64,000 nucleotides of DNA from Thuidium tamariscinum (taxonomy: Eukaryota > Streptophyta > Bryopsida > Hypnales > Thuidiaceae): contig OX344754.2 in NCBI GenBank assembly GCA_947034885.2, positions 1,116,001 through 1,180,000 on the forward strand, in the 5' to 3' direction. Positions 12,088 to 36,087 of this stretch are shown here, piece by piece. Position 1 is the stretch's first letter. Each line of letters opens with the position of its first letter. The notes under the pieces are model-generated. The model was not told the origin of the DNA and searched no databases. It worked only from the letters and a program-made list of their open reading frames with translations. Position numbers and translations under genes: made by a program.

Positions 12088-13277
12088 GGTGGACTCACTC
12101 GACAAACTCAAGTCTCTCATTCCGTCTATGCGAGCCAAGCTAAAAAATGAACGTAAGAAAATTTGTCTTGAATCCATATCCAGTCTTGCGAAACGAGCTT
12201 GCTGAAACACACCTCAGTCAGCACACCCGAATTTTTGATGCAATTGGTGAAAGGCAATAGCACATTTTTGAAGGAGGTGTCGATCGTATGTTACTGCTGT
12301 GTCTTGAATTGGTGGTAGGGAATATACCCTCCGCTACTTGCTGTCGTAAAATTCTGGTCTGGATGGACAATATCTATGACCTCGCAATTTTGTATTGAAC
12401 TTACTATATTTTCGTTTCTGCAGATAAATTCCGAGAGATTTACAACTTCGCCTTTAGTTGGGCCAAAGAAAAGGTCAGCATTTATTCCTTGTCGCTGCAC
12501 ATTTTGAAAAACTTGCTTAGTACTTTTTGTCTAATCTTGTTTGTTCAGTCTTTTCTTGCTTTCAATGCATGAGTACAGCACTTGTTCGGATTGTCTTTAG
12601 AACCCAAGTCATGACCTTGTTTTATCAAACACGGGCAAAAATCACTGGCGCTGGATACCGCCTTAGGCATGTGGCGACTAGTGTTTGCTGAGCGTTCGTG
12701 GCCTCTCGTTGAGCCGTGGTGTCAGTTCCTGCAAGTAAGACTTTTACATAATTGTACGTGCAAATCTTTTGGTCATCTTTCTCATCTCTGTTTTTCGTTA
12801 GGTATGTTTTTCGTTCCTCTCTCCTTCTAAGTGTAGGGTTAGGTGGACAGGCTAAGCACAACAAAGCTATCTCAAAGGATACTTGGGCCCAACTCCTCGA
12901 GTTTTCCAGGGTAAGTTGATGTTATTGTTCTTACACATGAGCAGCATCAGTTGCAGTAGGATCATCTGGTCAGCTTGATGTTGACGAATCAAGCGAAATT
13001 GATTATCTTTGATTCCTCTGCATGATGACTGTAATGAAGCGTTGGTGCGCATGTTAAGAGAGAGCAGCTAAACGTTTCGTGCCTGGTGATCTTCAATAGT
13101 TGTATGATTGACAAAAAGTAACATTGCAAACTAACAGCTTGTTGGTTCGGTACGCAGACAATCGACCCTACGCTTTCAAACTATGATGTTGAAGGGGCCT
13201 GGCCTTATTTGATCGACGAGTTTGTAGAGTATTTACGGGAAACTGGGGTAGTACATGAGTACATCCTCGTTGATTAA
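12088..13277 (+). pseudogene. 5'-truncated DCN1-like (DCUN1 / PONY domain) gene fragment
   Basis: Exons read by conservation: 12088-12152 (LKSLIPSMRAKLKNE), 12424-12473 (KFREIYNFAFSWAKEK), 12633-12734 (GQKSLALDTALGMWRLVF...), 12851-12910 (AKHNKAISKDTWAQLLEFSR) and 13158-13277 ([20 protein letters not shown]..., stop TAA). Phases match across junctions. This is the C-terminal two thirds of the PONY domain of DCN1-like proteins, scaffold E3s that promote NEDD8 attachment to cullins. The N-terminal part of the protein is absent. The third exon is preceded by AC where an AG acceptor is expected (12631-12632). Truncation and a doubtful splice site argue for a fragment. A 5' end far upstream, past the MITEs, is possible but unlikely. 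Confidence 0.8.
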
Positions 13278-13671
13278 ATAGGCTTGTTTGACTGTTATTG
13301 GTTTTCATTGTGATGAGAATTTCTGCTTTGGGATCATGTATCCAAGTTTTTTTTAGTCATTGGACGGTCGACCAACTGCAAGACGTGTGCTGCAGGCGGA
13401 TTTGTAGTGTTCATACTTTACAAGACTCTACCGTCCACAATGGAAAGTTACATGATAGCATGGAATGGAACCGGGTCTATTGGAAGCTATTATTAAGCAT
13501 GCCAATTTTGAGAAGCGTCAAGTTGCACTTCTGATCATTGGCGTTCATAGGCTATCAAAGTTATTTCTCTTAGTTTCAACATTATTGTTCTGTTTATGGT
13601 CTAATTGTCTTTCTTGTCAAAATGTAGAGGAGTTTATATCAATTAAAACATAAACAGAATCGCATTCTATG
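13278..13671 (+). other. Gene-like remnant, unrecognised
   Basis: Less AT-rich sequence follows the DCN1-like fragment. After a possible acceptor (CTGCAG ending near 13396), one frame reads GFVVFILYKTLPSTMESYMI and then IAWNGTGSIGSYY before a stop near 13495. This looks like the hydrophobic C-terminus of some protein, but I cannot name it. It may be the 3' exon of another captured gene. Confidence 0.3.
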
Positions 13672-13680
13672 ACTCTACAA

Positions 13681-14863
13681 TAGGATTGCTAAAGTATGAG
13701 CAATGAGCGTTGAGCATTGAGCATTGAGCGGGAAGATTTGAGCGTTAAGAATTTTAAGAAAAAAATTTAAGAATGAACATTTAAAAATTAATTTTATAAA
13801 AAATAAATCTTTAGATGTAAATGCCTTATTTCATTCATTACTTTAGATGGATGAAAATAATACCAGATGAATGTAGATGAAAAAATTAAGAACTATGGAT
13901 GTAGATTATTCTTTGGGCTATAAAAGAGCCTTCATTGAAAGAACTTTTTGGCATCAACAAAAGGCCCCTTGAATCTGAAGACTCTTCCTTGGGTTTAAAA
14001 GAGCCTTCGTTGCAAGAAGTTTTGGGTATCAAAAAAGGCTCCTCGAATCCGAGGAGCCTTTCTTGGGTTCCGAGGAGGCTCTTAGGAATTCCGAGGAGGC
14101 TTGTAGGGAGACAATATTAAAAAGCAATGATGATTTTAAGGCCTCTTCGATTCAAGGATGCTCTAAATGAGTTTTTTGGCACAAATGAAGGGCTCATTGA
14201 TTTGAAGTACCCTTATTTTAGTTTCAAAGTAGTTTCAATGAGAGACTTTTTTGGCACCAAAAAATGCTCCTTAGATTCAAAGAGCCTTTTATGAATTCAA
14301 AAAGCCTTATTAAAAAATGCTTTTTGGCACTAGGGAAAAGCTCTTCGAATCTGAGGAGCATTCTTTAGGTTCTAAAAAAGCCTATACTAAGAGAGCCCTT
14401 TGGCTCCAAAGAAGGGCTTTTTGAATTGAGAAACTTTTTTTGGATTCCAAAAAGGTTTTTAGGAAGACGATATTAAAGCACAGATGGTTCAAAGCCTCTT
14501 TGGTTTCAAAGAAGCTTATAATGAGTTGCAAAATTTTTAACAATTTGGAAATTGAATGATGAATGATGGATGATGGATGGATGACATGGATGAAGTTCAT
14601 TCACACATGAATGAATGGGTGTTCATTCATGCAACCTTTCATTATAATATCAACTATTTTTAATAATTTTTCTGTAGATTTAAAAAAAAAATTAAAATTA
14701 AAATTTTTTTGACATTATTATTTTTGGGTTTGATAATACTATTTATTTCTCTAACATGTCTATTTTTAGAAAACATTCTTGCAATGAGCATTCAAGTTTC
14801 ATTGCTCATTGCTCAACGCTCATTGCTCCCTGCTCATACTCTGCTCATACTCTAGCATCGTTA
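13681..14863. mobile_element. Mutator/foldback-like element (1,183 bp) with 9-bp target duplication
   Basis: ACTCTACAA occurs at 13672-13680 and 14864-14872, immediately outside inverted ends. The left end TAGGATTGCTAAAGTATGAG aligns with the complement of the right end, TAACGATGCTAGAGTATGAG. Both ends continue into arrays of GAGCAATGAGC-type words. The interior holds degenerate tandem units around GGCTCCT...AGGAGCC (13935-14480), largely self-complementary, and ATGGATGA runs. A 9-bp duplication is typical of Mutator superfamily elements. No transposase is present. It splits the gene-fragment block. Confidence 0.8.
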
Positions 14864-14872
14864 ACTCTACAA

Positions 14873-15565
14873 GGGAACTAGAACTTCAAGGAAAGAATAA
14901 TTGTGTTGAGCCTAATTTGGTTACCAACTTGCAAATTGCAGAGAAGGAATTGCAAGGTTTGACACACGCCGTCTCACCTGCAAAACATTGCCGTTGTGAT
15001 TCTCTTACAGACAACCATTTCTCACCATGAACGGATCCCACCTCCAGGAATGTCTCAAAATTCCTCAGTTTAAGCTTGCGCAATGTAGTGTCATGGTTAG
15101 TAATCCTACAACTCAAAAATCATTCATTGCTACAACTGTTTATGACAAAACCAGTAACTACATTGAATTGTAAGCTAACCACACCTAATTGCAACACCTA
15201 ATTTCTAATGTGACACTCCAAAATCTGACACAATGAGTTCACGTTGATTTTGAGAATGTAAACCATCTCAAAATTTGAACTCATGTTTGATTTTGGATCA
15301 TCTTTGAGTGCAACTTTGAACCTTTGTAATTTTCACGTGGTATCCAAATAATGCATTCTTTAGTGTGCATTGAAATTCGCTTTGCTTTGCCAACAAGGAA
15401 ATTTAGAAATCAGACCGTTTCAACAATAGTGAACATGCTCAGCACTTATAGTGTCGCAATTAGGCCTGGCTACCTCAGTGCTTCCAAAGAACAAGAGAAG
15501 CGCCATCATGCTCTTGAAAAACAAGGAAAAAATGAATATTAACAGTGTGAAAGTTACAGGCTTAC
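14873..15565. other. Continuation of the gene-fragment block, unrecognised
   Basis: Mixed-composition sequence continues the block interrupted by the Mutator-like insertion. Short open stretches, for example on the plus strand around 15380-15540, look exon-like in composition but match nothing I recognise. Confidence 0.3.
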
Positions 15566-16018
15566 TGTTTCAATAGGAGATTCTCTCTTAACAAGGCCCA
15601 AGAGGTTATCATTCGAAGTGCTGGCGGTCATGATGGACCTGTCTTTGGGCTCCCACAGAATCCGAACGACCTTCAATTGCACCATCGATTTGGTAACGAT
15701 CTCGTTTCCACTCGATTCACCCCACTTCTTGAACTCCATTAATGGAACGGAACGGGACTCAAATTCATCCATCTGCTTGCGGAGGACAAAGATCCGTGTT
15801 GGTCCACAGAGTGCCAGAAACAATTGGCAGGAGCATAAAATTTCACAACGCAATAATAAAGCAAAATTTGCAGAGAGTGAGAGGTTCATGCGATGCAAAA
15901 GATTGAGTTCCAGACCCGATCGGAGAAGGAAGGGATGGAGCAGTACCGGAATATGATGGAGTGGCACATGGGCCTTGAAATAAACGTAGTTGCCCGAACC
16001 ACTCATCCCTTCCGTCAT
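15566..16018 (-). CDS. First coding exon of an unrecognised conserved-looking gene
   Basis: On the minus strand an ATG at 16018 (second in-frame ATG at 16006) opens 151 codons beginning MTEGMSGSGNYVYFKAHVPL. They run to a good donor, ACA|GTAAGC, at 15566/15565; reading on into the intron gives a stop at once. The sequence is mixed: hydrophobic around residues 45-75 (FALLLRCEILCSCQLFLAL, likely one membrane segment), then a charged stretch with KQMDEFESR. The 200 bases upstream look like a real 5' leader. No downstream exon was found, so this is probably a 5' gene piece, the mirror image of the truncated DCN1-like piece at the other side. Function unknown. Confidence 0.5.
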
Positions 16019-16226
16019 AACTTCTTGCTCTAGTCCTCTCTCATCTGCGCAACCAACCTATGTAAAATTGCTGTCCAAAAACACCAAGGCGACGAGCAAG
16101 TATTCATTAGCGCTCAAAAGGAAATCGAACACAGAACACACGCCAAAGATCCACACGGAAAACCCCTAACGAATCCACTCTGAAGCTCACGCCCACACCC
16201 GAGGACAACTGTTCTTAACGTTCAAA

Positions 16227-16290
16227 AAGTTCCCCGTTCCCCTTGGTAGACGCAGCTCCAGTGAATGGACTACCAAGGGGCCCATAAAAA
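16227..16290. repeat. Hairpin-type junction repeat, copy A
   Basis: An 11-bp perfect inverted repeat, CCCCTTGGTAG (16239) and CTACCAAGGGG (16270), is preceded by AAGTTCCCCGTT and followed by CCCATAAAAA. The same arrangement, with the same flanking words, closes the second gene-fragment block at 36012-36087. The sequences on either side of the two copies differ. Confidence 0.8.
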
Positions 16291-17771
16291 TTCTAGGAAT
16301 TCAACAATACAATCAATTTGTAAAAACTCCCCTATTGATCTACAAAATTAAAAGAAGGTAATTAATTTAGACCTTGTGAAAAGTGAAAAGTAAAAATATA
16401 GGCTTGCATTTAGTGCTTGAAAAATTTAAGGTAATCTAAACATGATCTTATATAGTGCAAGGCAAATCAAATATATTAGAGGTATAAGGATAGAAATTTT
16501 TAGAGATTATCCACAAATTTTCATATTTTTTTGGATTGCATAAGATGTCTATGAAAAATCAATCTACTGAATCACTTCAACTAATGATGAAAATTTTCTA
16601 AAAATGATCTAAGTTGTGATAATTTTCAGTGAAAATTAGGATAGAATATTTAGTAATAATAACACACACCAACAAATTTTTAAGTATTAAAACACCAAAA
16701 AGTATCTAAAGAAGTAATTTCATCAAATTTAGGCAAAATTTAAATAAATTCAATGCATTGACTGGCATACTAGGAGCTTGTGACAATGTGACATCCAAAC
16801 AAGCCAAAGAGGAGTATTTTCCTTACTTTGACAATCCTTCTTTACACCCCAAGGAAGCCAAAATATTTAAAAATCAAGAATTTAACCATGTGAGATTTTT
16901 ATATTTCTTTCTCTAGACAATTCATTGGCTTCTTTGAGCCCAAATGACCTAAGAGTTGGTGTTGATGGTAGACCAAACTAACTTGGGCCTTCTAAAACTA
17001 ATGGCATGATCCATTTTTCATTAGGGATTTTTCCAAAAATTAGATAGGGGCCAACAATAGATTTGACTATTTTTTAAGTAATTAGCAATAATTAGTAGTG
17101 AATTCTAAAGAAATATTGAGGTTAGAACAAAAAGAAAGAAGTCTTGGAAAAAGTATAAAAGGATGCCATTTCTTCTCTCAAACCACCTTCTAGTTTCCAT
17201 TGTTAGATCATTAATGCTTTGTATTGAAGTGTTTAGGCCAATTTGTCCATTTGGTGTCCATTTGGTGTTTTGAAAGTACTTTGTTGATTCTTTTTAGTGC
17301 ACTACTAGAAGGATGCAAGGGAGTCTATAAAGCTATAGCACCCTAGTACTTGTTCTCATGGAAAAACGCTGAAATTTTTTATTTTTCGCATTTTTTATTT
17401 TTTTTCAAATTTTGAATTCATATTCAGAATCAGATATCCCAAATTAGCTAGTAGCTCCCCAACATGCCAAAAAAACCCAACGCAAATATAATCCCTAAAC
17501 CCTTGTCAACCCTTAGTAAAATGAGATTTACCCCACTGGCCCACCATCGATGGTACGATTTAACGTTCTGCCTCACTCGGCAGCTCCAATTGCTCTCAGT
17601 CTTCTCAATCTCAACACACTTTCTACAATTATTAATTCTCACAATTACTTGTTTCTTCACAGTTCCTTCACTCCATTCGGTGTTCATAACATAATTTTCC
17701 TCATCCAGTTCTGCAATTGGTAATCTCATTCACATTCCATCAATCAATCCAGTAATTCCACACCCTTAATG
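16291..17771. other. AT-rich spacer, no gene recognised
   Basis: No coding signal. 17400-17760 is slightly less AT-rich but contains no recognisable protein. Confidence 0.5.
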
Positions 17772-17773
17772 TA

Positions 17774-18094
17774 AGAGGTCCTATATGGACCATCTAAGGG
17801 CTGAAACAGAATTTCAGGGAGGTAAAACTTTTAGAAATATTTTTCAGTAAATTTTCCTTGAAAGACAAGTAGAATTGACATCTAATCCAAGTTGTTTCAT
17901 ATTTTTTTGAGCTTTTTTGAATTAGTTATCAAATTTTGAAGTTAAAAGGGCATAGGGCTCTCAAATGGTGCCCTAGCTAAAATGTACATTGTCAGTACAT
18001 TGCTAAAGGCTATGAAAAAGCAACATGTACTAGTACTGTACATTTAAGGTAGGGCACCATTTTAGAACCTACTCCATTTAAGAGCCTTCTACCT
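17774..18094 (+). mobile_element. TA-flanked MITE family 2, copy A (321 bp)
   Basis: Aligns end to end with the copy at 46640-46964. The right end AAGAGCCTTCTACCT is intact, the left end (AGAGGTCC) is eroded, and both are flanked by TA. TA duplication suggests a Tc1/mariner-type mover. Confidence 0.75.
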
Positions 18095-18259
18095 TACAAT
18101 TTTCCAATTGAGCACATACACAAACATACACTACAAAACTCACAATGGCAAACACAATTTCATATTTGTCAAAACCAACAACACATAATTGTTTTACTTC
18201 CTTAAGTGGAAGGAGCACCTTTCACTACCGAGGACAACTGAAAAACCAATTGGCTCACC

Positions 18260-18652
18260 ACTACCTAAGGGGGAAACACCCGATACCACACCCATGTGTA
18301 TCGTACCTTGCATTGGACCCTAGACTCATCCAAAACCATCCCTAGACTACAATTAATGTGTTTGCCAAATACCTGGTTCTAATTTGTTGACGCACATTAA
18401 GGACATATACCAAAATCTGATTGGTTCACTCCTAATTTTAGCAATGTTCAAATTAGGAGGCATCTTTTGGACAGTTTTAGTGCTCTAGGGAGCCAACACT
18501 TTGGAAAATCATAGAAATTACATACGGCATCGAATTTTTTTTTTTTAATATTCATGATTTTCACTTACTAATACTAAAAAAATATTATTTATATAAAAAA
18601 GTGCCTCCAACTATGCTGAATTCCTTATTTGGATGTTTTTGGATGTTTCCAC
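18260..18652 (+). repeat. Dispersed repeat, inverted partner at 49885-50305
   Basis: Runs of matching sequence, for example CTAGACTACAATTAA and ATTGGACCCTA, appear reverse-complemented in the partner, covering about 390 bases with moderate divergence. No ends or coding region were identified; it is likely an old non-autonomous transposon. Confidence 0.65.
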
Positions 18653-18764
18653 TGTAAATAATCACCCACCACTGGAAGACTAGAATGGTACACCCCAACA
18701 CTGACCAATCAGCTTCTACAACGCAACTCCTAGTGAGCCACTCCTGATTGGAAAATTCCCACTA

Positions 18765-19036
18765 AGGTAGGTACACCCAAAAGTGCCAGTTTCTCTACTG
18801 TGCCTACTTCTTGTTATTATGTTGTTCAAATTTTTTTACAGTCTTGTTGGTGAGTGAAAGCATGTTTCAACGCACTAAAGAACAGTGGATTTGGATACCG
18901 TATGCAAAAGTTATTAACAGTCAAAGTGTGTTTCTGAAAGCGCCATCTACAGTCTGGGTACATGACTGATTTTGAAAATCTATGCACGTTGTACAGAGCG
19001 CTTTAAGGTCAGGTGCCATTTTGGGTGTACCTACCT
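18765..19036. mobile_element. TA-flanked MITE family 3 (272 bp)
   Basis: Inverted ends AGGTAGGTACACCCAAAA and complement AGGTAGGTACACCCAAAA (right end at 19036) are identical over 18 bp and flanked by TA on both sides. They share the AGGTAG start with family 2. Non-coding. Confidence 0.82.
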
Positions 19037-20423
19037 TAATCATAAGAGGATTTTTGGGCCCCCAAAAGACCGTTTCAGGGGTGTTCCCTGAAATTGTTCC
19101 CACTACTACAGACCGGCCCCCTGCTGGTCTGAATTTTTTAATTTTGAAAATTAAAAATTAAAAAAAAATTCCAAAAAACTTCAGAATGTATTAAAGAGAA
19201 AAAAAAATGATTTAAAAAATAATTCAAATTTAAAAAATAAAAAATAATAATAATAATAAATAATAAAATTTATTATTTTCTGATGTGGCAGTCGCTCGAC
19301 CACATCAACATTGCGTTCCCAATGTTTCCAACGTTTCCAATGTGTTCCCAACGTTTGGGAACTCGCAGTCTTGTAAACCAACTAGAAATTCTCTTATGAA
19401 TAGCCTAGATGGAATTTCCTATTGATAAAAACTACACATTAACCAAAAATTACCAATTGGTCCCAATTCAAAAATTAAAACTTATCTTACAATAACATTG
19501 GTTGCTTGTATATTGAAACCTTCTTTCATCTACATTTATTTGTTTCATATTTAAAAAGAAAAAAAGGAAGTTCAACAATAAAGTCTTATTTTATTCACGT
19601 AATTAAGAATAAAACTGTTGTGGCTCTGAAACCATCCACTGAAGAAGGAAAAAACAAACTCTTATTATGCTCCAATGTAATTGGAAGTTCATTGACTCAC
19701 AATCAAGTTCCATTTCACAACCTCCTACTGGTGAGTTGTAAAAGACTAGGCGATTTCAAAGCCCTCTCCTATAGTTATACAAAAGTTTTCATTGTTGCAA
19801 TTTGAAGCCAGCTTCGTGATGTATACTAATCTGCAAATTCCCAGAGAATCCACTCTGCGAATTTTGGGATTATAAGCTTTGATGAACTTCGTATTTTGTA
19901 GATTCGGATCTTATAACATAATGTTCAAAGTTTCAGCCAACACATAGGGTAGACCATGAATCACATTTGTACAAGCTTCGAGCATGATCTAGGAATTGCA
20001 ACTAACAATTGAGTGGGAAAAAAATTTCAAAATTTGTCAAAGCTTGACTTTGACAACATCCCAAAAGAGCAAGATTTGAGGCAAGGATTGTCTACATCCT
20101 CAATACGGCCTATAGACACTACATATAGCAAAGTGAAATTCTGCAAAGATGGAGGACATCTAAGGGGCAAATTGGGGATCTTGGCATCCCTAAACTATCA
20201 ATTTAGACTCAATTACAAAGTGCAATTGAAATCCACTTGTAAACTTTTCAAAAAATAATTCAATTTTGAACGTCTAAAAAACATCAGTTGTGATGCATAG
20301 GGATTAATACACAGTATTTTGTTTTCAATCTTGTTGTCTCTCTACATATGCAAAAATGAATGATGCTACTTCATAACTAGAACATGATATCAAAAGTTCT
20401 TCATGCTACACTTCCACTACAAT
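19037..20423. other. Spacer with dispersed-repeat pieces
   Basis: 19120-19280 is A/T low-complexity. 19616-19800 resembles 42080-42235 (AAACCATCCA.TGAAGAAG ... CCCTCTCCTA), so it is a dispersed repeat and not a gene. Confidence 0.5.
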
Positions 20424-20426
20424 ATT

Positions 20427-20696
20427 CACTATAAGAAACCCGTGTTTTTGGTGATGGGCCCTAATTTATTATGAAGGATTTTAGGTGATGTCAATACTGA
20501 CAACCCAAAATTTTTGTGTCAACAAAAATGTCCAATGTAACATCAATGTTAACATAAAAACATTGGACTGTCAACATTGATGTTACCTTGTACATTTTTA
20601 TTGACGTAAATTTTTTGGGTTGTCAACATTGACATCACCTAAAATTCTTCATAAAAAATTAGGACTCATCACCTAAAACATGGGTTTCTTATAGTG
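20427..20696. mobile_element. CACTA-type foldback MITE (270 bp)
   Basis: Left end CACTATAAGAAACCCGTGTT and right-end complement CACTATAAGAAACCCATGTT, with ATT duplicated on both sides. The two halves are complementary almost throughout (GGTGATG, CAACCCAAAA..TTT, CATTGGACT motifs), so a transcript would fold into one hairpin. CACTA ends plus a 3-bp duplication identify En/Spm-type mobility. Confidence 0.88.
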
Positions 20697-20699
20697 ATT

Positions 20700-23005
20700 G
20701 CAAAATGACAATGATTACAAACCTTGATACTTCAATAGCAATTACTTTAGAAACAACATGAGGTCTACATTTAGAGTACAATTTAAATGTTGGAGCTAGC
20801 TAACTATTTAAAAAATATTCAAGTTATTATAGCATGACTTTTGTAAAATATATCGTATTACAACTACTATAGAATATTGTCATAAGCCTCAATACAACCT
20901 TTGATGAAAGCATGCATTGATAGATGAAGGAAATAGTGATTGCATTGGAAAGTACCTCCCATTCCTTTAGTATAGTTGCAATACTATTTCAATGTTTATA
21001 TGGTATAGTATTTAAAATATACTATTGCACAACAAAAGCAATATTGCAACAAATATGTTTCAATAGAAATACAATGTTTTTTCAAAAATAATATTGTTCC
21101 AATACTACTTTTGTATTGCAACAATTTACTTCTAATATTATAGTGCATAAATACCAAAACAATATTGTTTCAATGGAAGGTTACTTTCGTAATGTGTGTC
21201 ATGACTTTCGTTATGATGTTTGATCAATGAATGCATTGACATATTATCATGAATCAATTTATGATGAATGTGCACTAGTAGAGAAGTAGAGATTGCTAGG
21301 AGGTAGAGTGTCTCTAGATGGTGGATTTGTGCATTAAAGATAGAGAATTCTAGTTGGATGACAAGGGCATTGGAGTGACTGGAGATAGATATTTGCAAAC
21401 AATGGATTTATATAGTGGAATTAATTAACTCCGGCTGCATGACTAGAGCACTAGATAAACACAAATATGTTGGAACTTAGAGTAAATTAACCTGAAATAC
21501 AAGATCAAGAGTTGGATAAAAGATGATTTGAATAAGATATAATTGGAGAAGTATGATTAGGACTTTAATTTTAGTAGATGGTTTTAAATAGAATCAAGGA
21601 TAAAAAGCTATAGATAGAAAAGAAGTCCTAGGCTATTTTAAGGACTAGTAGTCTTTATTGATAGTCTTCATTATATAAAATGAAGCTTGGAGGTGAGGAA
21701 ATGCTCTTTGGAGATTGATCCTTTTCTTTGGCCCGGTTGTTAGTTTGCATTTTTTGTAAGACTTTCTTGTTAATAAGTATATTTTCTATTTGTATTTGGC
21801 ATTTGGATTGTTTTATCATTGCTGTAAAAAAGTCACTTATACATACTATAAAATCTCACCTTGGAAAGTTTCTTTGATCATCTTAGAATTGAAAGCTCTT
21901 CCAAGCAGTCAATATAAGATGGTCACTATGGCTATATAGAATACAATCATTTATTGTGAGCTTGGTGAAGAAAACAAGTGTAGAAGCCAACAAATTCTAA
22001 GCCTAAACTTAAAGGATTTGCAATCATTCCATCCTAAATCCTTAGTCCAAGGAAGAAAGCCTTAAAGACCTTGCAAATACCAGCAACACTATAGCAACTT
22101 CTATGCACCCTAAACTACAATGAACAATAACCACATATGATATTATTATAGCATTTAGAAAGTTTGTACATGCAATAAAATAAAGACAAAAACTCAAAAT
22201 TTTAGCCTTTGTTACTCTAGTAGTGGGAGATCTTGTTTAGAAAGTGTAATGTGCATTGTAAGCCTTTGTACCATGCTTCACCCTCAACTTTTCCAACAAA
22301 AGCTGTTGTAGATCAACTATTCTACCATTGGCAGCCCAAGTTGCTTTCTAAAATCCTAAAGCAAAGCACATATTCTAGCTTGCAAAGACCATGAGGAAGA
22401 CAATGTAGGTTCAATTCAAACATTAAAAGAAATCTATAATAATATCCTCTAGCAATACACAAGAAAAACATACAGGCTAAACCACAATATTGAATGTTTG
22501 ATTGTATGCTACTAAGGAAATCTAATAGTATTGAGAATATAGCACACTTTTTCCCACACTTCACCCCCCAGAAAGTTACTTTCCATTCGTGCAATGACCA
22601 TTCAAAATTATATAGAAATGTAGTCACATGTCCATGAAATCAAATGAAATGATGATAATGCAATTGAACCCATTAAACAAGTTAAAAAGAATATAATGTT
22701 TGGAATTCTATTTTTTTCAACTATATACTAAAATGGGAGAGTTATATAGAATTCTACTTTATATATAATTATATACAATATAAATTACCAATGCTATGGT
22801 AGATCTCATGAAAGTATAATTTTTCTTCTAACTAATTGAATTGATCCTATTATTTATTGCACCTAGTTTTCTAAAATTTCAATGGTCTCCGCCAAATATT
22901 TTGCTACAATAATTTCATGGATTGAGCTAAATGTATTCTACAATAGTTTTGGAATTAATAATATTAACCAAGATTTCAAGAATTGTGATGCCTTCCTATA
23001 TTGTA
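20700..23005. other. AT-rich spacer, no gene recognised
   Basis: No credible coding region on either strand. 20880-21180 is rich in ATATTGCAACAA-like words without clear periodicity. Confidence 0.5.
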
Positions 23006-24905: not shown

Positions 24906-25431
24906 GAATCCAAGCCCCTGAATCCAAAGCCCCGACCCAACTCCTGGACCCAACCCCGACCTAGCCCCTGAGGTGCCCGGCTGTGGTACTGGCGGGGTGC
25001 CCAACTGCGGTACTAGCAGGGTACTCGGTTGGTGCCCGGCTGCGGATTGCGGGGTGCCCGGCTAGTGCTGGCTGGGGGCTCCGATTGGGGCTCTCAACTA
25101 ATGCTGGCTGGATATTAGCTAGGTGCTGGACCCTTGCAAATTGACAATTGTTTTACTAAATCTGCCCCTTAATTGGTCTAATAATTATACAAGGTGTTGT
25201 CTAAGGTATAACCACATTACACTCTACCTAAGGAGCCTCCTAATCGTCACTTTGTTGGATACTAAACGTTGAAATAGTGCCAAACATGTTGGACACTAAA
25301 CGTTGATTCTACCCCAAGAAAATTTGCTTTTGACACCCCGCTAAGACTTGGGGGGGTCAAAGCTTTGCCGTGAGGGTAATGCCTTTGACACTTGACTAAG
25401 ACTTTTGGTTTCTCTAGGAATTTAGGGGGGT

Positions 25432-25605
25432 CAAAGCTCCGCCATCTCTCATGGGACTAGTTTAACCCTGTGAACAAAAGAAGAGGGAAGAAGAGAGTTG
25501 TGCCTCTAATTACTAATACTACACATTATGAGGGAGTCAAAGCTCCGCCAACCCTCATGGGACTAGTTTAACCCTGTGACCAAGAGAGGAGGGAGAAGAG
25601 AGTAG
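25432..25605 (+). repeat. Two-copy direct repeat, ~105-bp spacing
   Basis: Both copies contain TCAAAGCTCCGCCA, CATGGGACTAGTTTAACCCT and AGAGGAGGGA or AGAAGAGGGA in the same order. Confidence 0.75.
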
Positions 25606-27330: not shown

Positions 27331-29590
27331 CCTGCAAAATACAACAAATAGTACAGGTGTTTCATACAATCACCCTGTATAATAATCTACTTCTAAAATG
27401 TGGTGTGTGTTTACAATTCATTGGTATGAAAGATGAGGCTCCAAAAACATGGGAGCTTTTTCATCTCAATCATCATTATAAAACAAGTATAACCAAGTTG
27501 GTTCTTGAGTTTGCTTTGTAAAACTTTTTATAGTGGGTATCTAAGAGTGGTTCAATGTTTTTTCCAAGCAATGAATCTTTTTTAACTTCCTAAAGGAACC
27601 AACTAAAACTTTACAACATAGCAAATTTGACCATCTCAATGGAATTTAGGCAAACTCTACATTCTTGATATGAGAATTTCAAAGCACAAAATTTAGCTAT
27701 TCTTTGTCATATTTCAAAGTTTTCCATTTTCAAAATCATAAAATTCATTCTATTTAGAGTTTTCTAGTAGAAGTTATAGCTAAATGAAATTTGGCCTTAA
27801 AAATAGTTCAAATTTCATCCATGATTTTCAATTAACATTAGGACTCAAATTGATTTTGAATTTTGGATTTAAATTTAACTTAAGTCTAATTCCTAAGTTT
27901 CAAGTTTGACCTATAATGGATAAAGAATCATTACTTTCATAATTTGATCTTAGTGCTAAAATTCATCTTTGATTATCTATCTTGTTTTAACTTCTTTTTT
28001 TAATTGTAAATTAGATTTTTTTAAATCCTAAAGTTCTTCTAAATGATCCTATGTCCTAATTATTGCCTAATTGTCTTCAAAAAAATTTGAAATTATTGTC
28101 TATTTAATTCTTAAGACTTTGGAATTCCTTTTCCAAACTTCTTATTTTTATAATTAAAGTATCTTTTCTTTATAGGTTCTAAAACTACCTATCCAAAATG
28201 CTAAGATACTTAGAGTTAAGGCTTTCCTAATGAAAGTTAAAGATGGATGAAGTTTGATTGCTCATTGGTATACCTTTTCTTTAGACTTTTGAACTTTGCA
28301 TTTACACTAAATTCTAAATTTCTATTTCTACCTTTCTTTGATGAACTATATTATTTCTCATCCATTTTTACTACCAAACTTCATCCATTGATATTCACTT
28401 TGTTTGATTTTATCTAGTTTCTAAGTTTAATATGTTTTTAGAAAGCTCTAAAATTCTTCTACAAGGATATAAAACTAAAATTGAAAGTAAAATACTTCTA
28501 GAGGTATTAAGAAAGTAAAATTAAGATTGTAAATTCTACTATGTATTTGAATTTTAAACCAAAAGACACTAAAGAAAATTAATGACTTATATACTTACCT
28601 TGAGTTGACTTCATCCAAGAGGTGTTTGAAAATGGCCTCAATGCCTTTATTGTTCTCCATCTTGTCTTCTTTTTGTGATTTGCTTATCACTTAAATTATT
28701 AATTTGTGGTATAAAATATGATAGTAAATCCAATCTAACCACCTATTTTCTCCCTTCTAAATTTCTTTTATTCCTTTGCTTTTAGCTTCACTTCTCTTCT
28801 TGTCTTTTCTTTCTAAGACTCTTTTCCTTTGAATTATTGTTGATGTCAATTAATTATACCGTTCCAAGAGAAAAAAAATCAATAATTCTATATTCTTGTT
28901 TCCTACTTTGCATCAAAGAATGATAATCGTGGTATCACCACCCTAAATATGACTATTTGGTAATTGTATCTAGATTTCTTCCCATTTTTATACTATTTTT
29001 GTCATCAATGTACTTTAATTTCTAATTTTTCCTTTGCTAGGTAATAATTCCTCCTCTATTTCCTTTCTTGTAGTAATTAATAATATTTTTTTGGAATTGT
29101 TAAGCTTCTTATTTTACTTATTTGTAAACTACAATTTGAGAGCTTCTAAATTGTTGTAAAGAAGAGATAGTCAAATCTAAAATAAAAATTAACTTAATTA
29201 AAATATATTTATATAGAAAAAATCTAAATTTATTTCTAAATTTAAATATATTATTAATAATTTTTTAGAAATTACCTATGTTGCGGTTCAATTTCACTAG
29301 AAATTAGGATTGATTCTTTATGCCAATAACATGCTATAACAAGTTTCATGGCATTTTGACATTGTGAAGTATTCAAACTCATGTGAGATTCTTCAATTCC
29401 ACCAAATTTGAAGACTATTAGTGGATGACTAATGTTGTGAGAGTATACAAAATCAAAATGAGGCAGAAGCAAGGATTTTCTTTACTCCCACACACCTTCA
29501 AAAGAACCTAGGCTAATTTTTTTTAAAGACAAACTCCAAAGGTTGAGATTTTATCTTTTTTTAGTTTAAATTGGTGCTAGATTTTGCAAC
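27331..29590. other. AT-rich spacer, no gene recognised
   Basis: Begins with a possible eroded end of MITE family 1 (GTGTTTCATACAATCACCC near 27356-27374). The rest is AT-rich, without coding or repeat structure that I can define. Confidence 0.45.
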
Positions 29591-29591
29591 G

Positions 29592-29990
29592 ATGTTGGTA
29601 TGTGAGCATAGAAGTGTGAGCCTACACTAGTAGAAATCTGCATTTGCCTCAACAAAATCTACTTGACGTGTTTGTTGAGGCAAACGCAAAAATTGTGTTG
29701 AAAAACATTAAAAAAACGCAGTTTTTGCGTTTGCTTCAACAAACACGTCAAGTAGATTTTGTTGAGGCAAACGCACATTTCTACTAGTGCTATGAGCCTT
29801 GAGCCTAAGTATAAGTAAGTATCCTACACTCATTGAAGGTATTTATAACATAAACACCTATAATATAGGTATTTAGAACATAAATACACTATAACCATTG
29901 AGGTGTTTATAATATAGACCCCTATATTATAGGTGTATAGAATTCTAGGTTCATAGGCTCACACTTTCTATACTCACATACTAGCAACCG
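29592..29990. mobile_element. Palindromic MITE family 4, copy 1, carrying a nested CACTA element
   Basis: Inverted ends GTTGGTATGTGAGCATAG and complement of the right end GGTTGCTAGTATGTGAGTATAG. The interior contains internal palindromes (CTATATTATAGGTG, ACCTATAATATAGG). It aligns with 51249-51482 except for 29625-29792, which is a later insertion. Approximate ends. Confidence 0.72.
29625..29789. mobile_element. CACTA foldback MITE (165 bp), nested
   Basis: Ends CACTAGTAGAAAT and complement CACTAGTAGAAAT are perfect, with CTA duplicated at 29622-29624 and 29790-29792. The arms stay nearly perfectly complementary for about 70 bases (CAACAAAATCTACTTGACGT is present in both), leaving a short loop. 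High arm identity implies a young insertion. Confidence 0.93.
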
Positions 29991-30451
29991 TGCTAGATTT
30001 TAATGATTTTTTTGCAATAGAAAAGAGAGACAAAGGTTCATCTAATTGAAAATAGTGTGATCTATTTGGGATCTAGGATCTTTGGAAAAATCTAGAGTTT
30101 TAGACCAATATAGAAAGTGAATTTTTTTAATATTCGAATGAAAATTCTAAGTGATATGATTACCACTAGTTAAAAGAGAGCAAAAGGTGCCCATGCAAAA
30201 TGTATACAAAAGGCATAGCCTTCTCCCTCAAACCCCCATTGTATTTTTGTAACCTTTATTATTTTACTTTTAAATAATGTCATAGTGAGTTGAGGTTTAG
30301 CCGTGAAGTTGAGGTTAGAAGCTCACTTCTTCTTTCATAACATTGTAGAGTACTTTTGGGCACTCTTTGACATCGGTTGCATGTTGTTGTGCTCTGCGCT
30401 AAGCCATAACATTGAATTTAGAGATGAGTCTTAAAATAAGGTTCCTTTGGT
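29991..30451. other. Spacer, nothing recognised
   Basis: Mixed AT-rich sequence without repeats or coding signal that I can define. Confidence 0.4.
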
Positions 30452-30455
30452 TTAA

Positions 30456-32611
30456 CCCCTAAAGGACCAACATGCCTTTTTTCGCAACTAGCGATTTTGG
30501 GCAGGTACGTGTGACTAGAGATTTCCATGTTTTGGGACCAGACTTTAATAGAAGGTGTGGACAAGGAATATCTTTAAAGTCCAACAATTTTCATGACTTT
30601 TGACTTTATGGTTGAAAAGCTATCACACAATATGTTGTTTGCTTCTCAACTCGGGTAGTTTGAGCAGATCATAACAAGACGTGTGGGCCCTTGAGAATCA
30701 CCCTCAAAATCATACATTGAAGAATAATTATTAAGATTAACCCCTCACCGCCCAAGGGGACCAAAAGTGTCCTCACACAATCTAGCAGCCAACTTCAAAG
30801 TGCTGTAACTTTTGCATCTGATGTCCAAATTCAATGAAACTTGTTGGAAAAGTTGAGCATAGAAGTCTAGTTTCTATGGTAAAATTTTCAGATCAATAAA
30901 AGTTGTATTGAATTTTTGGCAGCCAATCAAATCTTGCAGGTGCAATTTGAGTTCACCAAACTGCATTTTAGGGCTACAACTTCAGGGGCTTGTATCTTTT
31001 TCATTCCATATTAGATTTCAATCAAATTTGTTGGGTTTTATTTTCCTTGAAGTCTAGTTATAGTGGTAATATTTTCATGTCAATCCAAGTTGTTTTGAAT
31101 GTTTGGGAGTAATTTGAAGTTTAAAATCCATCCATTTTTGGAGTGTAGTGAACTTTGGCGACTTATAACTTCTTTTTACATGGTCCATTTACAACAATTT
31201 TTGTTGGAAAAGTTGAACATACTAGTCTAGTTTTTGTAGTTCAAATTTCATATCAATCCAAGAACTAATGAGTGATTAAGGAGCATTTTAGTAAAGAGAG
31301 GTTCAGCTATAGATGTGATTTTTTGCTACTTTTTTCACTGTTTTTTGACATTTCAAAACAATTTTGCAAGTACAACGAGTCAATTTAAATTTTTTTTCAC
31401 CAAAGTGTTCTTATTTTATTTTTGAATCATTTTGTAGTTTAAATTTTTTTCATTTGAGTAGGTTTAGAAATCAAATTTCACCTCTAAATGTGTTTTTAAG
31501 AAAATTTCAGCATCTTTTTTCAACACTAAAACATTATAATCTTTCAATCTATACGGTCAAATGACTCCAAATTTGATCTACAGCATTTTTAACATGCACA
31601 CTACAAGATTGTACGGTTCAGATTTTCATACATTAATCACATTTACACTTATAACACTTGAAAAGTAGGGTTGTTTTCTGACATGGTTGGGGCTTGGGCG
31701 GTGAGGGGTTAAAGTTCCTTGACTACGTTTTCACCAAAACCACTCCAAAATTGCCATTTTTAGGACAACTACCAAAAAAAACATTAAACATTTTTTGGAC
31801 ACATCCAACCATAGGATCATGTAGAACTCTAATTTGAAAAGATGTGGAAAATTTTTCAGAAATTTCCACTGTGTAGATTGCAAGATATTTGTGTTTGAAT
31901 CAACAAAAAGCCTTTTTTGTCCCTACAAAAAATTGGGCAGCTACACTTCACAAGGTCATATTTGTATGAAAAAATGTCCAAAATGGTTACAAATCTTTGG
32001 ATACATTCTTCAAGGCAAGTTCGCTACATGCTTGAAAATTTTTAGATCATTTGGAATTGTAGAACATACAGGAAAAAAATAGTAAGTAGAAAGAGGTAGA
32101 GAACAAATCAAAATACTAAATTGTTAATAATTTAGTTTTGAAATTGAAAATTTCCAATTCCAATGGTTGTAATATTGTAATAAACAATCTTCACCTAATA
32201 TAATATATAATATAATATAATATATTTTTAATTTTTTCCAAAAATATTAGAAATTGAGTTCAATAAAGAACTTCAAAATTTATTTTGGAGTAGAGAATCC
32301 ATAACTGCCCACAAACTAAAACACCTCATAACTTTTCACTCGTTGATGAAAATGGAATGATCAAATTTTTATTTTTGAAAAACATGATTTTTTCAGATCT
32401 GCCCGGACTGCCCAAGTTGAGAAACAAACTACGTATTTAGCCATAACTTCTTACTCGTATTTCCAAATGTCCTGAAATTTGTATATATGAAAGATATTCC
32501 TTGTCCACACCTTGTATTAAAATTTGGGACAAAAATATGAAAAACTCTACCCACATGCACCTACCCAAAAAAGTTATATTGCCAAAAAAAGGCACCTTGG
32601 TCCTTTAGGGG
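30456..32611. mobile_element. TTAA-type element family 5, outer copy (piggyBac-like ends)
   Basis: Left boundary TTAA then CCCCTAAAGGACCAA. Right-end complement CCCCTAAAGGACCAA is bounded by TTAG, one change from TTAA. The inverted arms are long: matching phrases such as GGTGTGGACAAGGAATATCT occur in both, so the terminal repeat spans over 200 bp. It is interrupted by the element at 30741-31708. The interior of the right half recurs in the elements at 36088-37951, 39314-39940 and 53238-54180. No coding capacity. Confidence 0.72.
30741..31708. mobile_element. TTAA-flanked element family 6, nested (968 bp)
   Basis: Exact TTAA on both sides (30737-30740; 31709-31712). Ends CCCCTCACCGCCCAAG and complement CCCCTCACCGCCCAAG are inverted. 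The interior is non-coding. TTAA duplication with CCC-starting ends is the hallmark of piggyBac-type transposition. Confidence 0.82.
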
Positions 32612-32615
32612 TTAG

Positions 32616-33200
32616 TCACCAAGATTAATTTTTAATTCTAAATATCATTATCTGTCCAGTGAGATGAAAAGGTTTTATCATTTGAAAAGGACCACTGGAT
32701 TTGTACTATAGGTGCACCCAAATCTGAAACCTACAAAAATCAGCTCTCAACAAATCAGAACTCATAATGTCTCTTTGAGTTGCGTCAGCTAATAAGAATC
32801 AAACATTTGGAGGACACATTTGTGTAAATGGAGAGACACTTTCAGGGCACTCTATGGACATGTCTAAGATAAAAGGATGAGAACGGGTGTTTTCACCTTA
32901 GTTCAAGAAAATGTGTGGGCCCTAGAAAATCACCTACAAAAACATACATTAAAAAAGGTTGGATTTATTATAAAGATTATTAATTTATTTATAAGTTTTT
33001 AATCTTTAAAACATTGAAAATAGATGTAAAGGTAAAACACGTTAGACTACCAATTGGTATATTTTTGTTCCATCTATATGTTGTTTATTGGTTGCATGGT
33101 CTTATGTAATTGGGTATGTCAATTTTTTAGATATTATCTTATGATTTGAACTCTAAAAGAAAGATTATCATATGGATCAATCGTGGTAAGGTAGAGAAGA
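32616..33200. other. Spacer left of the second gene-fragment block
   Basis: AT-rich. Contains GTGTGGGCCCTAGAAAATCACC near 32916, also present near 30690. The left border of the gene-fragment block cannot be placed. Confidence 0.4.
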
Positions 33201-33245
33201 AGCCCAACACTTCTCCTTTTACAAACACAAACTTCAGGTAATTGC

Positions 33246-33476
33246 TTAAGCTGCCCTTCTACTTCCAAAAGATGGGAAGGATTTGAATGTCTCAGCCCCC
33301 TTTTTAAACATGTCGTGGAGTTTAGAATGCAGCCACTGGTTGCAGGCGCTGTCACTATCTACCTCTTCTTTTGATGCAGGTAGTATAAAAGCACTCTCAA
33401 ACACAATCTGAAATTCATCTTCACAGGAGTTCACGTATGCATGAAAGTCCTCATCAGATGCTCCACGTTTCCCCAT
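33246..33476 (-). pseudogene. Exon-like fragment, unrecognised
   Basis: On the minus strand an ATG at 33476 opens 76 codons (MGKRGASDEDFHAYVNSCED..., ending SFPSFGSRRAA, stop). The composition is protein-like, acidic then basic, and clearly less AT-rich than its surroundings. I do not recognise the family. It lies beside two truncated conserved genes on the same strand and is probably another gene piece. Confidence 0.4.
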
Positions 33477-33752
33477 AGCAGCAATAGCAATAAGAAATTC
33501 ACATGAGCACAGAAATCAACGTCACCTGTTCACGATGTTCTCATTCAAGCCACAAGCTCAGAGACTACCAAATAGAATGAAACTTCGAAAACCAATTGCA
33601 AGAGTTGAACCCAAAGGAGGTCTTCTGGCATCATTGTCTCGAAAGAAAAGTTATTCACATGAGAGCTAAACCCATCCAGAACGACTATTCTATAGTCCAT
33701 AATGCCAAACTTGCCAACAGTCAAACATTCAGCGATCGACCATAACTCTGCT

Positions 33753-34420
33753 CTAGCTTACAGACATGGGGGAGGCTATGGGAGCTGCAGGGGGGCCCTG
33801 CTTGTCTTCTACAGTTCTCCTCCACAAAAGCTCCCGGACACCATCCTTGTCCACGATCTTAATGACAAAGTTCGGGGGGGAGACCACAAGTCTGCTCCTC
33901 ACTTCCTCAATACATTTATCAACCAGCTCCAAGGCCTTGTCCAGTGACATGTTCTTCTCGAAGTATCTGTCCATCAGTGAAAGCAGAAAGTACGCCCCTG
34001 CATCATATTCGATAGGCTCATATCAGCACAAAACAATGAGATTCATCCACAACAACCTCGGAGCTGTCATCTGCCACGTATATGGGAGGTCAAAGTCTCC
34101 CACATGGAATAATCGCATAAGAAATTCACACTTATTGATAAAAAAAAAATTTGATCTCAACAGATTTCTTGTACCCAAAGATCTCTCCACAACTTTTCGT
34201 CGATCTCTCCAAACTCACGCTTTATATGTTGAAATGCTCTAACTGAGGCAAATAGTATCCTCCAATGTAGAGGACCATGTACTAGGATTGTGGATAACTC
34301 ACCATAGCCCATTCCACCTTTTTCAAGCTTATGCAGGGTAGAGATATAGTCCAAGTAGTACAGTGATGGACCCTGGTCCTTATCCCACCCAGCCAGCATC
34401 ATATTGACTTGGTAGGGGTT
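33753..34420 (-). pseudogene. 5'-truncated proteasome subunit beta type-2 (PBD, beta-4) fragment
   Basis: Two minus-strand exons: 34420-34303 (NPYQVNMMLAGWDKDQGPSL, then YYLDYISTLHKLEKGGMGYG) and 33997-33753 (AYFLLSLMDRYFEKNMSLDK..., RSRLVVSPPNFVIKIVDKDG, stop). The donor GTGAGT and acceptor GCAG are good and the phases agree. Together they give about 120 residues, the C-terminal 60% of the ~200-residue plant PBD subunit of the 20S core. The N-terminal half is absent: the 300 bases upstream look like intron and no exon is recognisable. The preceding acceptor (TTTTCAG before 34420) is intact, consistent with a copied or captured genomic piece. It should not be functional. Confidence 0.85.
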
Positions 34421-35335
34421 CTGAAAATACATGGACAGCACGAATCTCATCATGCACTTGGCTCTGAACGACACTCGAGAACATTTCTTAGGGTTGTGTG
34501 ATGACAATGCACACGCCTCTGAACAGAGCAACGAATCTCTTTTACTGGTCAAGATTGACGAGTTCCTACATGAGAGTGTCTGAAAGACAGGAAGAGAGAC
34601 AAGAATAACAGTTGACGCGATATCTCAGTGACAGTTCAGAGAGTTGGCCGAGCATCAAGAAAAAAAGTTGTTGTCAAGAAGAATCCCGAAGAGCTTCGAC
34701 AGCTCGGAAGACTCAAAGGCGAAATCGCAGACCTCTGAAGAAACGGGGATTTGCTCACCAAGTTGTGATTTTGGTTAGTCACCACTAGATAATTGGGAAT
34801 ACCCCAAAACTCTTGCTCAACCTAATTTGTCCCATAAAGTTTGGGCACCTAAAATCATGGATGACCCAAAATTGCCACCCTAAATTCTTAGACAGTAATC
34901 ATTTGCTAACTAGCTCCCACAAGACAAAAAGCTATAATCCCTTGTTCAGAAACTCTAAACCGCTGGGAAGCTTCTCCTAAGCGCAAACTACTGGAATCGC
35001 CTCTCATAAATTTGTTTTTCTGCGTAAATTCAGCTGAAAAAGCAGTTATAAGGAACTATGTTTAGCTCTAAGCGAAGCGAGTATCGTGTGCCCATCTTAG
35101 TGACGAGTACAAATTGTTGGTGTCCTAAAAACACCAACAGGTAACTGATAAAAAAATACTGACCCTAACACTGAGAGCACGCAATAAGTTAGCAGCTCCA
35201 GGAGCACCTCCAACGAAAAAAAGTAGAAACTACATATTCTGAGAGGAAATAACTTGCAACCAGGAATGAGAATTGCTCTCCAAGCGGCACAAAGTCGTAG
35301 AGATTCAGACTAATTTGGTGGACTTGGCACTAATA
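34421..35335. other. Intron/flank-like sequence in the gene-fragment block
   Basis: Less AT-rich than the transposons around it but without recognisable exons. Probably intron and flank carried with the PBD and Sec61-beta pieces. Confidence 0.35.
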
Positions 35336-35339
35336 CTCT

Positions 35340-35600
35340 TTAATGCACAGGAGCAAAGACCTGCAAGCACCAGGAAGCTATGCATATTGATCTTTCCTAC
35401 AAAAAATTACAATGCCAAAATCACCTCCCAACTAAAACTACGTATGTGCCCTAATAAGAAGCTAATCTCAGAGAGATTGACGAATGCGTATACCTCCCTT
35501 GACCCGTGCCTCCAGCTCAGGCTCTGGCGCCGTGAAACTTCTCCGGCACGTGAAGAACATCAAAACGAGGACATCGAATGATGTACAACAAAACGAGCAA
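35340..35600 (-). pseudogene. Second partial copy of the Sec61-beta 3' end
   Basis: This duplicates 35655-35885: both contain AGCAAAGACCTGCAAGCACC, ACTACGTATG/ACTACATATG and CTGGCGCCGTGAAACTTC-like sequence in the same order. On the minus strand it ends LHVPEKFHGARA then stop (35519), against [14 protein letters not shown] in the better copy. Only the last few codons and the 3' flank are present. Confidence 0.65.
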
Positions 35601-35825
35601 ATCAAATCAGACTTCGAGCTTCCTAGTCTGGTCTACTTTGGTTTACTTGCTACCAATACTTTTTCTGCACAGTAGCAAAGACCTGCAAGCACCAGGGCAC
35701 TATGCATGTTGATCTATATCCTGCAAAGTTTACAAGGCCACATCCACCTCCATCTAAAACTACATATGCGCACTAACAATAAGCTAACTTGAGAGGGCTC
35801 ATGTAAATCTCACTTGAGCTGTGCC

Positions 35826-36047
35826 CTAAGCTTTGGCTCGGGCGCCGTAAAACTTCCCCACCACGTGAAGCAAGGTCACGAATCCGATAAACATGACGCT
35901 CATGATGAGCACAACCGTCGGAGTGATCTTCAATCCAGGCGCGTCGTCGGTGTAGAAGCGCAACATGTTGCTGTTGACCCCCCGAGATGCACTGCTTCCT
36001 CTTTGCTCCTGAAGTTCCCCGTTCCCCTTGGTAGGCGCCGCTCCCAA
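35826..36047 (-). pseudogene. Sec61-beta fragment lacking its start
   Basis: The minus-strand frame ends with [48 protein letters not shown] and stop: the conserved cytosolic motif and single tail-anchor membrane helix of the Sec61-beta subunit of the ER translocon. Upstream in frame there is no ATG before TAG near 36063, and the Ser/Ala/Arg-rich N-terminus is cut short exactly where the hairpin repeat begins. An internal ATG (NM in NMLRFYT) could start only a stub. This is a gene fragment joined to the hairpin. Confidence 0.85.
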
Positions 36048-36087
36048 TGTTGGGAGCGTAAGCGTCTACCAAGGGGGCCCATAAAAA
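36012..36087. repeat. Hairpin-type junction repeat, copy B
   Basis: CCCCTTGGTAG (36024) and CTACCAAGGGG (36066) surround a second hairpin, CGCTCCCAA.GTTGGGAGCG. It is preceded by AAGTTCCCCGTT and followed by CCCATAAAAA, exactly as in copy A at 16227. It forms the junction between the Sec61-beta fragment and transposon sequence. Confidence 0.8.

Follow-up and report, generated by a model that had tools for sequence, protein, structure and literature searches.

Two chimeric gene blocks of Thuidium tamariscinum as probable members of a Helitron-superfamily family with non-canonical ends

Two gene-bearing blocks in the window

A 64,000-nucleotide stretch of the genome of the moss Thuidium tamariscinum (assembly GCA_947034885.2, contig OX344754.2, positions 1,116,001 to 1,180,000; here called the window, C6:1116001-1180000) contains two blocks of host-gene pieces, both of which are two-ended elements: block 1 spans 11910-16285 and block 2 spans 30673-36082. 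Both are closed on the right by the same hairpin motif, and we consider it quite likely that they both belong, as non-autonomous elements, to a single rolling-circle family of the Helitron superfamily whose ends are non-canonical and Helitron2-like. The initial annotation of the window had proposed a gene-capturing element and placed the blocks at 12.1-16.3 kb and 33.2-36.1 kb; the elements are real, but their actual spans are those given above. Their features are listed below, where a percentage names the best-matching locus of the genome, which may be the source itself or a further copy. Genome-wide searches took in 363 Mb, in 19 contigs (C numbers) of the window's own genome; extracted loci carry L numbers, and host-gene domain calls are Pfam matches at E <= 0.01.

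Features of block 1:
11910..11962, plus strand: left terminus, from AACAAGACATGTGGGCCCTAGA... to ...GATAATCCATG, common to L001, L003, L006, L009, L010 and others
11960..13461, plus strand: DCN1-like (cullin-binding) gene piece, 96.7% to C1:6058443-6059941; PF03556, E 1.5e-14
13468..13619, unstranded: captured piece, 88.9% over 153 bp to C10:17845902-17846054
13618..15891, unstranded: captured piece, split by a later nested insertion, related to C1:31778337-31779412
13672..14872, unstranded: nested non-autonomous terminal inverted repeat (TIR) element (13681-14863) with inverted ends and its 9-bp duplication on either side
15912..16166, unstranded: captured piece, 93.3% over 255 bp to C3:6919491-6919745
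16227..16285, plus strand: right terminus, AAGTTCCCCGTT plus hairpin (with a 10-nt inner deletion) plus CCCAT, then an A-run

Genome matches to the left end of block 1 stop at 11959-11962, and the DCN1-like identity proposed for the adjoining piece is borne out by its cullin-binding domain. The match to C1:31778337-31779412 (86.5-88.5%) is split between 13618-13678 and 14864-15891, stretches that are contiguous in C1. The nested element of ~1.2 kb, presumably Mutator-like by its looks, has the 9-bp duplication ACTCTACAA at 13672 and 14864, and an unoccupied counterpart is found in L056. About 60 bp between the piece that ends at 16166 and the right end are unmatched. A lone first exon had been read on the opposite strand of this block; it gave no Pfam match at E <= 0.01, and the region holds a 294-bp module (15598-15891) that is found five more times in the genome, twice by hairpins (L003 and C6:15303656).

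Features of block 2:
30673..30736, plus strand: true left terminus, AACAAGACGTGTGGGCCCTTGA..., an exact match to the left-end pattern, fixed by an empty site
30737..31712, unstranded: high-copy TIR element of ~975 bp, 64 bp inside the left end, with inverted ends and TTAA flanks
31693..32909, unstranded: AT-rich segment, 91-92% to loci C2:36.90M and C3:30.56M
32905..33168, plus strand: second, degenerate left terminus with subterminal region, similar to left ends
33169..33446, unstranded: captured piece, 87.8% to C1:11460499-11460777
33449..34434, minus strand: proteasome beta-2 gene piece, 98.5% to C6:21529872-21530855; PF00227
34430..35995, minus strand: Sec61-beta gene piece, 95.3% to C1:39404497-39406034; PF03911, E 2e-16
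36012..36082, plus strand: right terminus, AAGTTCCCCGTT plus hairpin plus GCCCAT, then an A-run

Both gene identities proposed for block 2 hold. The domain scan (32900-36090) gave proteasome matches in two frames (E 7e-6 and 1.6e-4), and the best structure match of this piece is 7qve (4.1e-26 vs 1.7e-12 for the next), a chain that we take to be from spinach. Sec61-beta is present in two pieces, as had been noted, but they correspond to a partial duplication that pre-exists in the matching C1 locus. Nor is its frame cut exactly at the hairpin motif, the donor match stopping at 35995, 16 bp before the right terminus. The stretch 34429-35442 (Sec61-beta) is 98.7% identical to sequence near the right end at C2:36898075, where another piece stands before the hairpin. 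At the other side of the block, the ~975-bp TIR element has the ends CCCCTCACCGCCC...GGGCGGTGAGGGG; the query used to search for it held other repeats too, and among the best 40 of 13,711 first-look candidates, which were scored, most matches run from ~30737 to ~31712. The same element is nested at the same position in five left ends, that of block 2 being 97-98% identical to the other four. The degenerate terminus at 32905 resembles 30673-30724 (81% over 52 bp) and a left end in L011 (76% over 105 bp); it was rejected as the start of block 2, because flanks joined at 32905|36085 gave no junction match, whereas those joined at 30672|36087 did. The flank at 36083-37500 is dense in inverted repeats (202 nt, 92% complementary, and 100 nt, 98% complementary).

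Shared ends and insertion sites

That one hairpin junction closes both blocks, as initially annotated, is confirmed. The motif, AAGTTCCCCGTTCCCCTTGGTAG...CTACCAAGGGG(G)CCCATAAAAA, lies at 16227-16290 in block 1 and at 36012-36087 in block 2, and its 11-mer, with at most one mismatch, was found four times against 0.39 expected by chance. Both window hairpins fold better than 200 of 200 shuffles (z -4.0 and -7.7). The hairpin has up to 23 paired bases, and 5-6 nt separate its stem from the terminus. A strict hairpin pattern occurs at 19 places in the genome, block 2 falling outside it with a loop one base too long. The 27-base junction AAGTTCCCCGTTCCCCTTGGTAGACGC, by which right ends were counted (at most 3 mismatches), occurs at 44 places, and its reversed control at none; 30 of these 44 loci were compared. 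A single conserved block, from AAGTTCCCC via the hairpin to GGGCCCAT, is seen in 26 aligned right ends. Beyond it the sequences differ, as the annotation had stated for the two blocks, in every pair among the 30 loci save L031/L032 (one duplication), while inside the right end five pairs have at least 100 bp in common. Moreover, the element-side 1 kb is GC-richer than the outer 1 kb in 28 of the 30 loci (0.443 vs 0.310; the exceptions are L028 and L033), a set in which the two window ends and three pairs of near-identical loci are included. The right end is directly followed by AAAA in 23 of 30 scored ends, against a background of 1.2% after AT in the window (35 right ends were given, 3 repeats dropped, and 30 of the 32 distinct ends were scorable); on the opposite strand, therefore, the elements start right after a T-run.

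The initial annotation had called for a search for a common left end, and one was found. The sequence AACAAGACGTGTGGGCCCT or a close variant forms the left limit of L015, L016, L001, L003, L006, L009, L010 and block 1, and occurs 231 times in the genome with at most 2 mismatches (control, 0). When 100 of the 231 left ends were used for pairing, on the same strand and within 20 kb, at least 30 of the 44 right ends had a left end upstream, 2.1-15.6 kb away; 200 random displacements of the right ends gave a mean of 0.145 and a maximum of 2, and 6 of the left ends used lay on the wrong side or strand within 20 kb. Counting L015 and L016, paired from their own loci, 32 of the 44 right ends are two-ended. 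Four end pairs, on C1, C1, C2 and C7, are spaced 6054-6060 bp, and the two that were compared (L043 and L044) share 1495 bp of inner sequence at 98.8% identity and differ directly outside. L015 and L016 show 99.9% identity across the 3543 bp that lead up to the hairpin, with different sequence beyond; they are the same chimera between unrelated flanks. L004 and L005 (C2:38.864-38.889 Mb) are a plain inverted duplication, 15 kb apart and 99.99% identical over 9852 bp including both flanks; the pair arose either by recent duplication or as an artefact of assembly.

Two empty sites were resolved. For L003, the occupied sequence ...CAATTC|AACAAGACG...GGGCCCAT|AAAAAAA... has the unoccupied counterpart ...CAATTC|AAAAAAAA... 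in three copies of the repeat. For block 2, the flanks joined at 30672|36087 gave seven repeat matches that span the junction at 66-75% identity (two in the window, two in L012 and one each in L053, L044 and L011), the site in L053 reading GCAGATCTG|AAAAAATCATG. At both sites the insertion lies beside an A/T run, and neither has a target duplication, for which a check had also been proposed; extra A's in the run are possible. Joined flanks compared with the extracted loci gave no empty site for block 1, L001, L004, L009, L010 or L015 and no match spanning the junction for L006; for L016 a single match, 69% identical and in L010, spans the junction.

Captured pieces and a Rep-helicase member

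Host-gene domains were found in 9 of the 10 two-ended elements scanned. The ten come from the first 20 loci, with the duplicates L005 and L016 omitted and the Rep-helicase element described below added, and are partly dependent, in that L001 and L006 have ~0.8 kb by the hairpin in common. Besides those already listed for the window, the domains include:
L001: Ras
L004: GPAT_N
L006: cytochrome b5, zinc finger
L009: DPPIV_N
L010: bromodomain, acyltransferase
L015: TFIID_NTD2, EMC4, UPF3

No host domain was found in L003 by the Pfam scan. The terminus with the hairpin thus adjoins different host-gene pieces from copy to copy, in line with the gene-capturing element first proposed. L015 is itself a patchwork, with matches on C5, C3, C1, C4, C2 and C4, and parts of it are found again in the element at C4:29089949 and 1.5 kb inwards of the unpaired right end C8:22490571. 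The main source-locus matches are unbroken over 1.0-1.6 kb, through exon and non-exon sequence, which rules out cDNA copies and upholds the earlier view of the pieces as genomic.

From left to right, the pieces are 96.7, 88.9, 86.5-88.5 and 93.3% identical to their matches in block 1, 87.8, 98.5 and 95.3% in block 2, and 85, 93, 87, 90, 97 and 98% in L015 (raw percent identity, coding and non-coding mixed). No end-to-end gradient of divergence appears in these three elements, the closest-matching piece lying near the left end in block 1, in the interior of block 2 and, in L015, by the hairpin. The joints between pieces, in both blocks, have 2-5 bp overlaps at three (one with a source mismatch) and 2, 6 and 20 unmatched bases at three. 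The position of the closest piece, together with these overlaps and fillers, is not what would be expected if capture took place solely by read-through of one terminus; filler-DNA repair or template switching inside the element, combined with exchange between elements, would fit the sequences better.

One member encodes a protein that may act on such ends. The 11.3-kb element C1:47690768-47702075, with its left end at 47690768 and its right end at 47702004, has an uninterrupted frame of 1172 amino acids with matches to Helitron_like_N (at C1:47693923, E 1.9e-23) and PIF1 (E 2.2e-19). The protein aligns with the Rep and helicase parts of Helraiser, and HAH and YLLKY motifs are visible in it, which we assume to have their usual meaning in a Rep-helicase. 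Pfam scans of this frame, of the 3.8 kb that follow it (in six frames) and of nine further fragments found no endonuclease or RPA domain. The closest relatives in the genome are stop-broken or partial, and identity to the four Rep-helicase loci that best fit the Pfam model is 25-29%. A second candidate for such a member is the unpaired right end C4:6462706, which has Rep-helicase pieces (C4:6479818-6482335) 17 kb upstream on its own strand; a further fragment, at C3:32692836, is found 0.2 kb behind a left end. The 11.3-kb element also carries cargo, a prefoldin piece (E 5.4e-17) adjoining the hairpin as well as pieces of cytochrome-b5 and C2HC zinc-finger type.

A distant Rep-helicase branch, 32-58% identical and mostly with many stops, was seen at C10:4638673-4650328 and C3:22476805, which suggests an older non-canonical lineage. 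Elsewhere in the window, 1596-5800 holds an NB-ARC-like frame (1596-2741) and then ~34 copies of a 72-bp leucine-rich-repeat-like unit in two frames; we take this to be a decayed plant resistance-type gene.

Interpretation and relation to known Helitrons

Because one member has both ends and a Rep-helicase frame, we place the family in the Helitron superfamily: a Rep (HUH) and a Pif1-type helicase occur in at least one element with the same ends, and target duplication is absent at the two empty sites. The marks of canonical Helitron1 are absent too, the ends being AACAAG... and ...GGGCCCAT rather than 5'-TC and CTRR-3', and insertion not falling between A and T. The exclusion of Helitrons in the initial annotation was therefore right for canonical Helitrons, but it does not extend to the superfamily, since a same-ended member encodes a Rep-helicase. 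An AP-endonuclease domain, as in Helentrons, was not found in the regions scanned. Insertion after TTTT or a T-run agrees with Helitron2, while a hairpin at each of the two ends was not found; for this reason, and because the inverted repeat between the ends is short, we call the family Helitron2-like only. We infer its subclass, its polarity and its mechanism of capture from these features.

In the mechanism proposed here, the Rep-helicase would act on both ends and nick at the junction of the T-run and the terminus (ATGGGCCC); one strand would be peeled off and a copy inserted at another T-run. On the Helitron2 convention, the hairpin end would be the 5' end, the element would lie on the minus strand of the window and the Rep-helicase gene would be reversed. 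Gene pieces would be added stepwise inside the element by copying unrelated loci, through template switching or filler-DNA repair, so that the closest piece could lie near the left end, internally or by the hairpin; modules may also be exchanged between members of the family. More tentatively, the family could represent a plant Helitron2-type lineage with capture within the element and not at its ends, in which the exon blocks form a shared library of shuffling modules, one block occurring beside different partners in different elements, and old elements as well as host genes supply the material for new chimeras.

Several observations weigh against this account. L002 (the same as L029; L002:4942-5014) is a right end of ~73 bp alone in an AT-rich repeat, without cargo. 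Its joined flanks match other copies of the same repeat across the junction, no left end was found near it, and it may be a one-ended product or a deletion remnant; a full two-ended element with cargo is thus not the sole product. Of the right ends, 12 of 44 have no assigned left end, and left ends exceed right ends by about 5:1 (231 vs 44), an excess that the model does not explain; since just 44 right ends of the hairpin type were found, most of the left ends must be without one. Four left ends were folded and none folded better than its shuffles, a 5-bp stem being present in L015 only and equalled by 58 of 200 shuffles. The inverted repeat between both ends is limited to TGGGCCC, at unequal distances, with the second copy ~11 bp from its end; the repeat is 7 bp long and its GGGCCC core is palindromic, so that it could be due to chance. 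The 1172-residue frame is one of 38 Helitron_like_N matches in the genome and the one demonstrated between the two ends. It reads towards the hairpin, which in a canonical Helitron would then be the 3' end. Finally, the sequences give no direct sign of either movement or a circle.

The direction of the Rep-helicase is what would be expected of a canonical Helitron1 lineage with drifted ends, in which the hairpin is the ordinary 3' hairpin and 5'-TC and CTRR-3' have been replaced. The distance of 5-6 nt between stem and terminus is also near the 10-12 nt given for Helitron1 in PMC5148889. Yet neither 5'-TC nor CTRR-3' is present, the target lies beside an A/T run and not at A|T, and the Rep-helicase is distant (25-29%) from the four loci of the genome that best fit the Pfam model; we regard this origin as unlikely. 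Much less probable is a cut-and-paste, gene-packing TIR transposon (Pack-MULE or Pack-CACTA) with the Rep-helicase at C1:47.69M as a captured passenger, even though that element holds other captured gene pieces and genomic gene pieces are typical of Pack-MULEs. Pack-MULEs have long TIRs and a target duplication of 8-10 bp. Here there is no inverted repeat beyond TGGGCCC and no duplication at the two empty sites, while the nested TIR element of block 1 shows a 9-bp duplication, so that duplications are recognisable in that setting; the initial view that the ends are not obviously Pack-MULE stands.

We give almost no weight to ordinary segmental duplications, or processed gene debris, ending by chance in a repeated hairpin. 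The inverted duplication L004/L005 and the hairpin without cargo in L002 do point that way, but overall the hairpin does not occur mostly without gene pieces and its copies are not ordinary duplications, as the GC contrast in 28 of 30 loci and the L015/L016 chimera indicate. Against such an origin stand the unbroken source matches over exon and non-exon sequence, the common left end with its far-above-chance pairing, the occurrence of one chimera in unrelated flanks and the empty sites; paired ends and empty sites rule it out for all but L004/L005.

With their non-canonical ends, these elements would be expected to be missed by finders tuned to TC...CTRR. They hold many housekeeping-type gene pieces (DCN1-like, proteasome, Sec61-beta, Ras, DPPIV-like, TFIID subunit, EMC4, UPF3, prefoldin and others), and the source loci of blocks 1 and 2 are still recognisable at 86.5-98.5%. 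Because this one assembled genome offers the source loci together with empty sites, near-identical copies and a Rep-helicase member, each junction can serve as a test between the competing capture models (end bypass, filler DNA or template switching).

Gene-capturing Helitrons and Helitron2-type Helitrons are both already known, and among the latter is Helitron-5_SMo, whose name we take to refer to Selaginella. It is listed as a member in the description of the Helitron2 group by Bao and Jurka 2013 (PMC3627910), which gives insertion after TTTT. The moss family and Helitron2 are alike in the Rep-helicase partner, in T-run insertion without target duplication, in a strong hairpin at the T-run end and in a Rep-helicase that is reversed in some Helitron2 members; the one-ended insertions of Helitron2 recall L002 (PMC3627910). 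Helitron2 has an asymmetric inverted repeat of 8-15 bp; the candidate repeat of the moss family is 7 bp, and its second copy lies ~11 bp from the end rather than 20-30 (PMC3627910). The moss family is also unlike Helitron2 in having no consistent second hairpin and in having captured host genes in most of the scanned elements.

FoHeli elements of Fusarium oxysporum (PMC5148889) share with the moss family non-canonical ends, a group with a hairpin at one end, a variable Rep-helicase orientation and, as in block 2, multiple termini; comparable too is the target of FoHeli1 and 2, between TNAT and T. They differ in being fungal and in their terminal sequences. Helentrons and DINE-1 have, like the moss family, a T-rich target and T-runs at the ends, and also subterminal inverted repeats, of which TGGGCCC may be a counterpart here, but Helentrons have a C-terminal endonuclease domain (PMC4067079), and the scanned parts of the moss family have none. 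Within the openly accessible Helitron literature on mosses and land plants and on Helitron2 and Helentrons, with subscription papers and Repbase outside the search, we found no description of the ends reported here. The ends of maize Helitrons are canonical, whereas those of the moss family are not. The two are alike, according to Dong et al. 2011 (PMC3288121), in stepwise capture of multiple fragments, in multiple termini and in segments common to relatives. Gene capture by Helitrons seems best described for canonical ends, in maize above all (in part from PMC13317346). The moss family combines maize-style stepwise capture and multiple termini with FoHeli-style non-canonical ends and one-sided hairpins.

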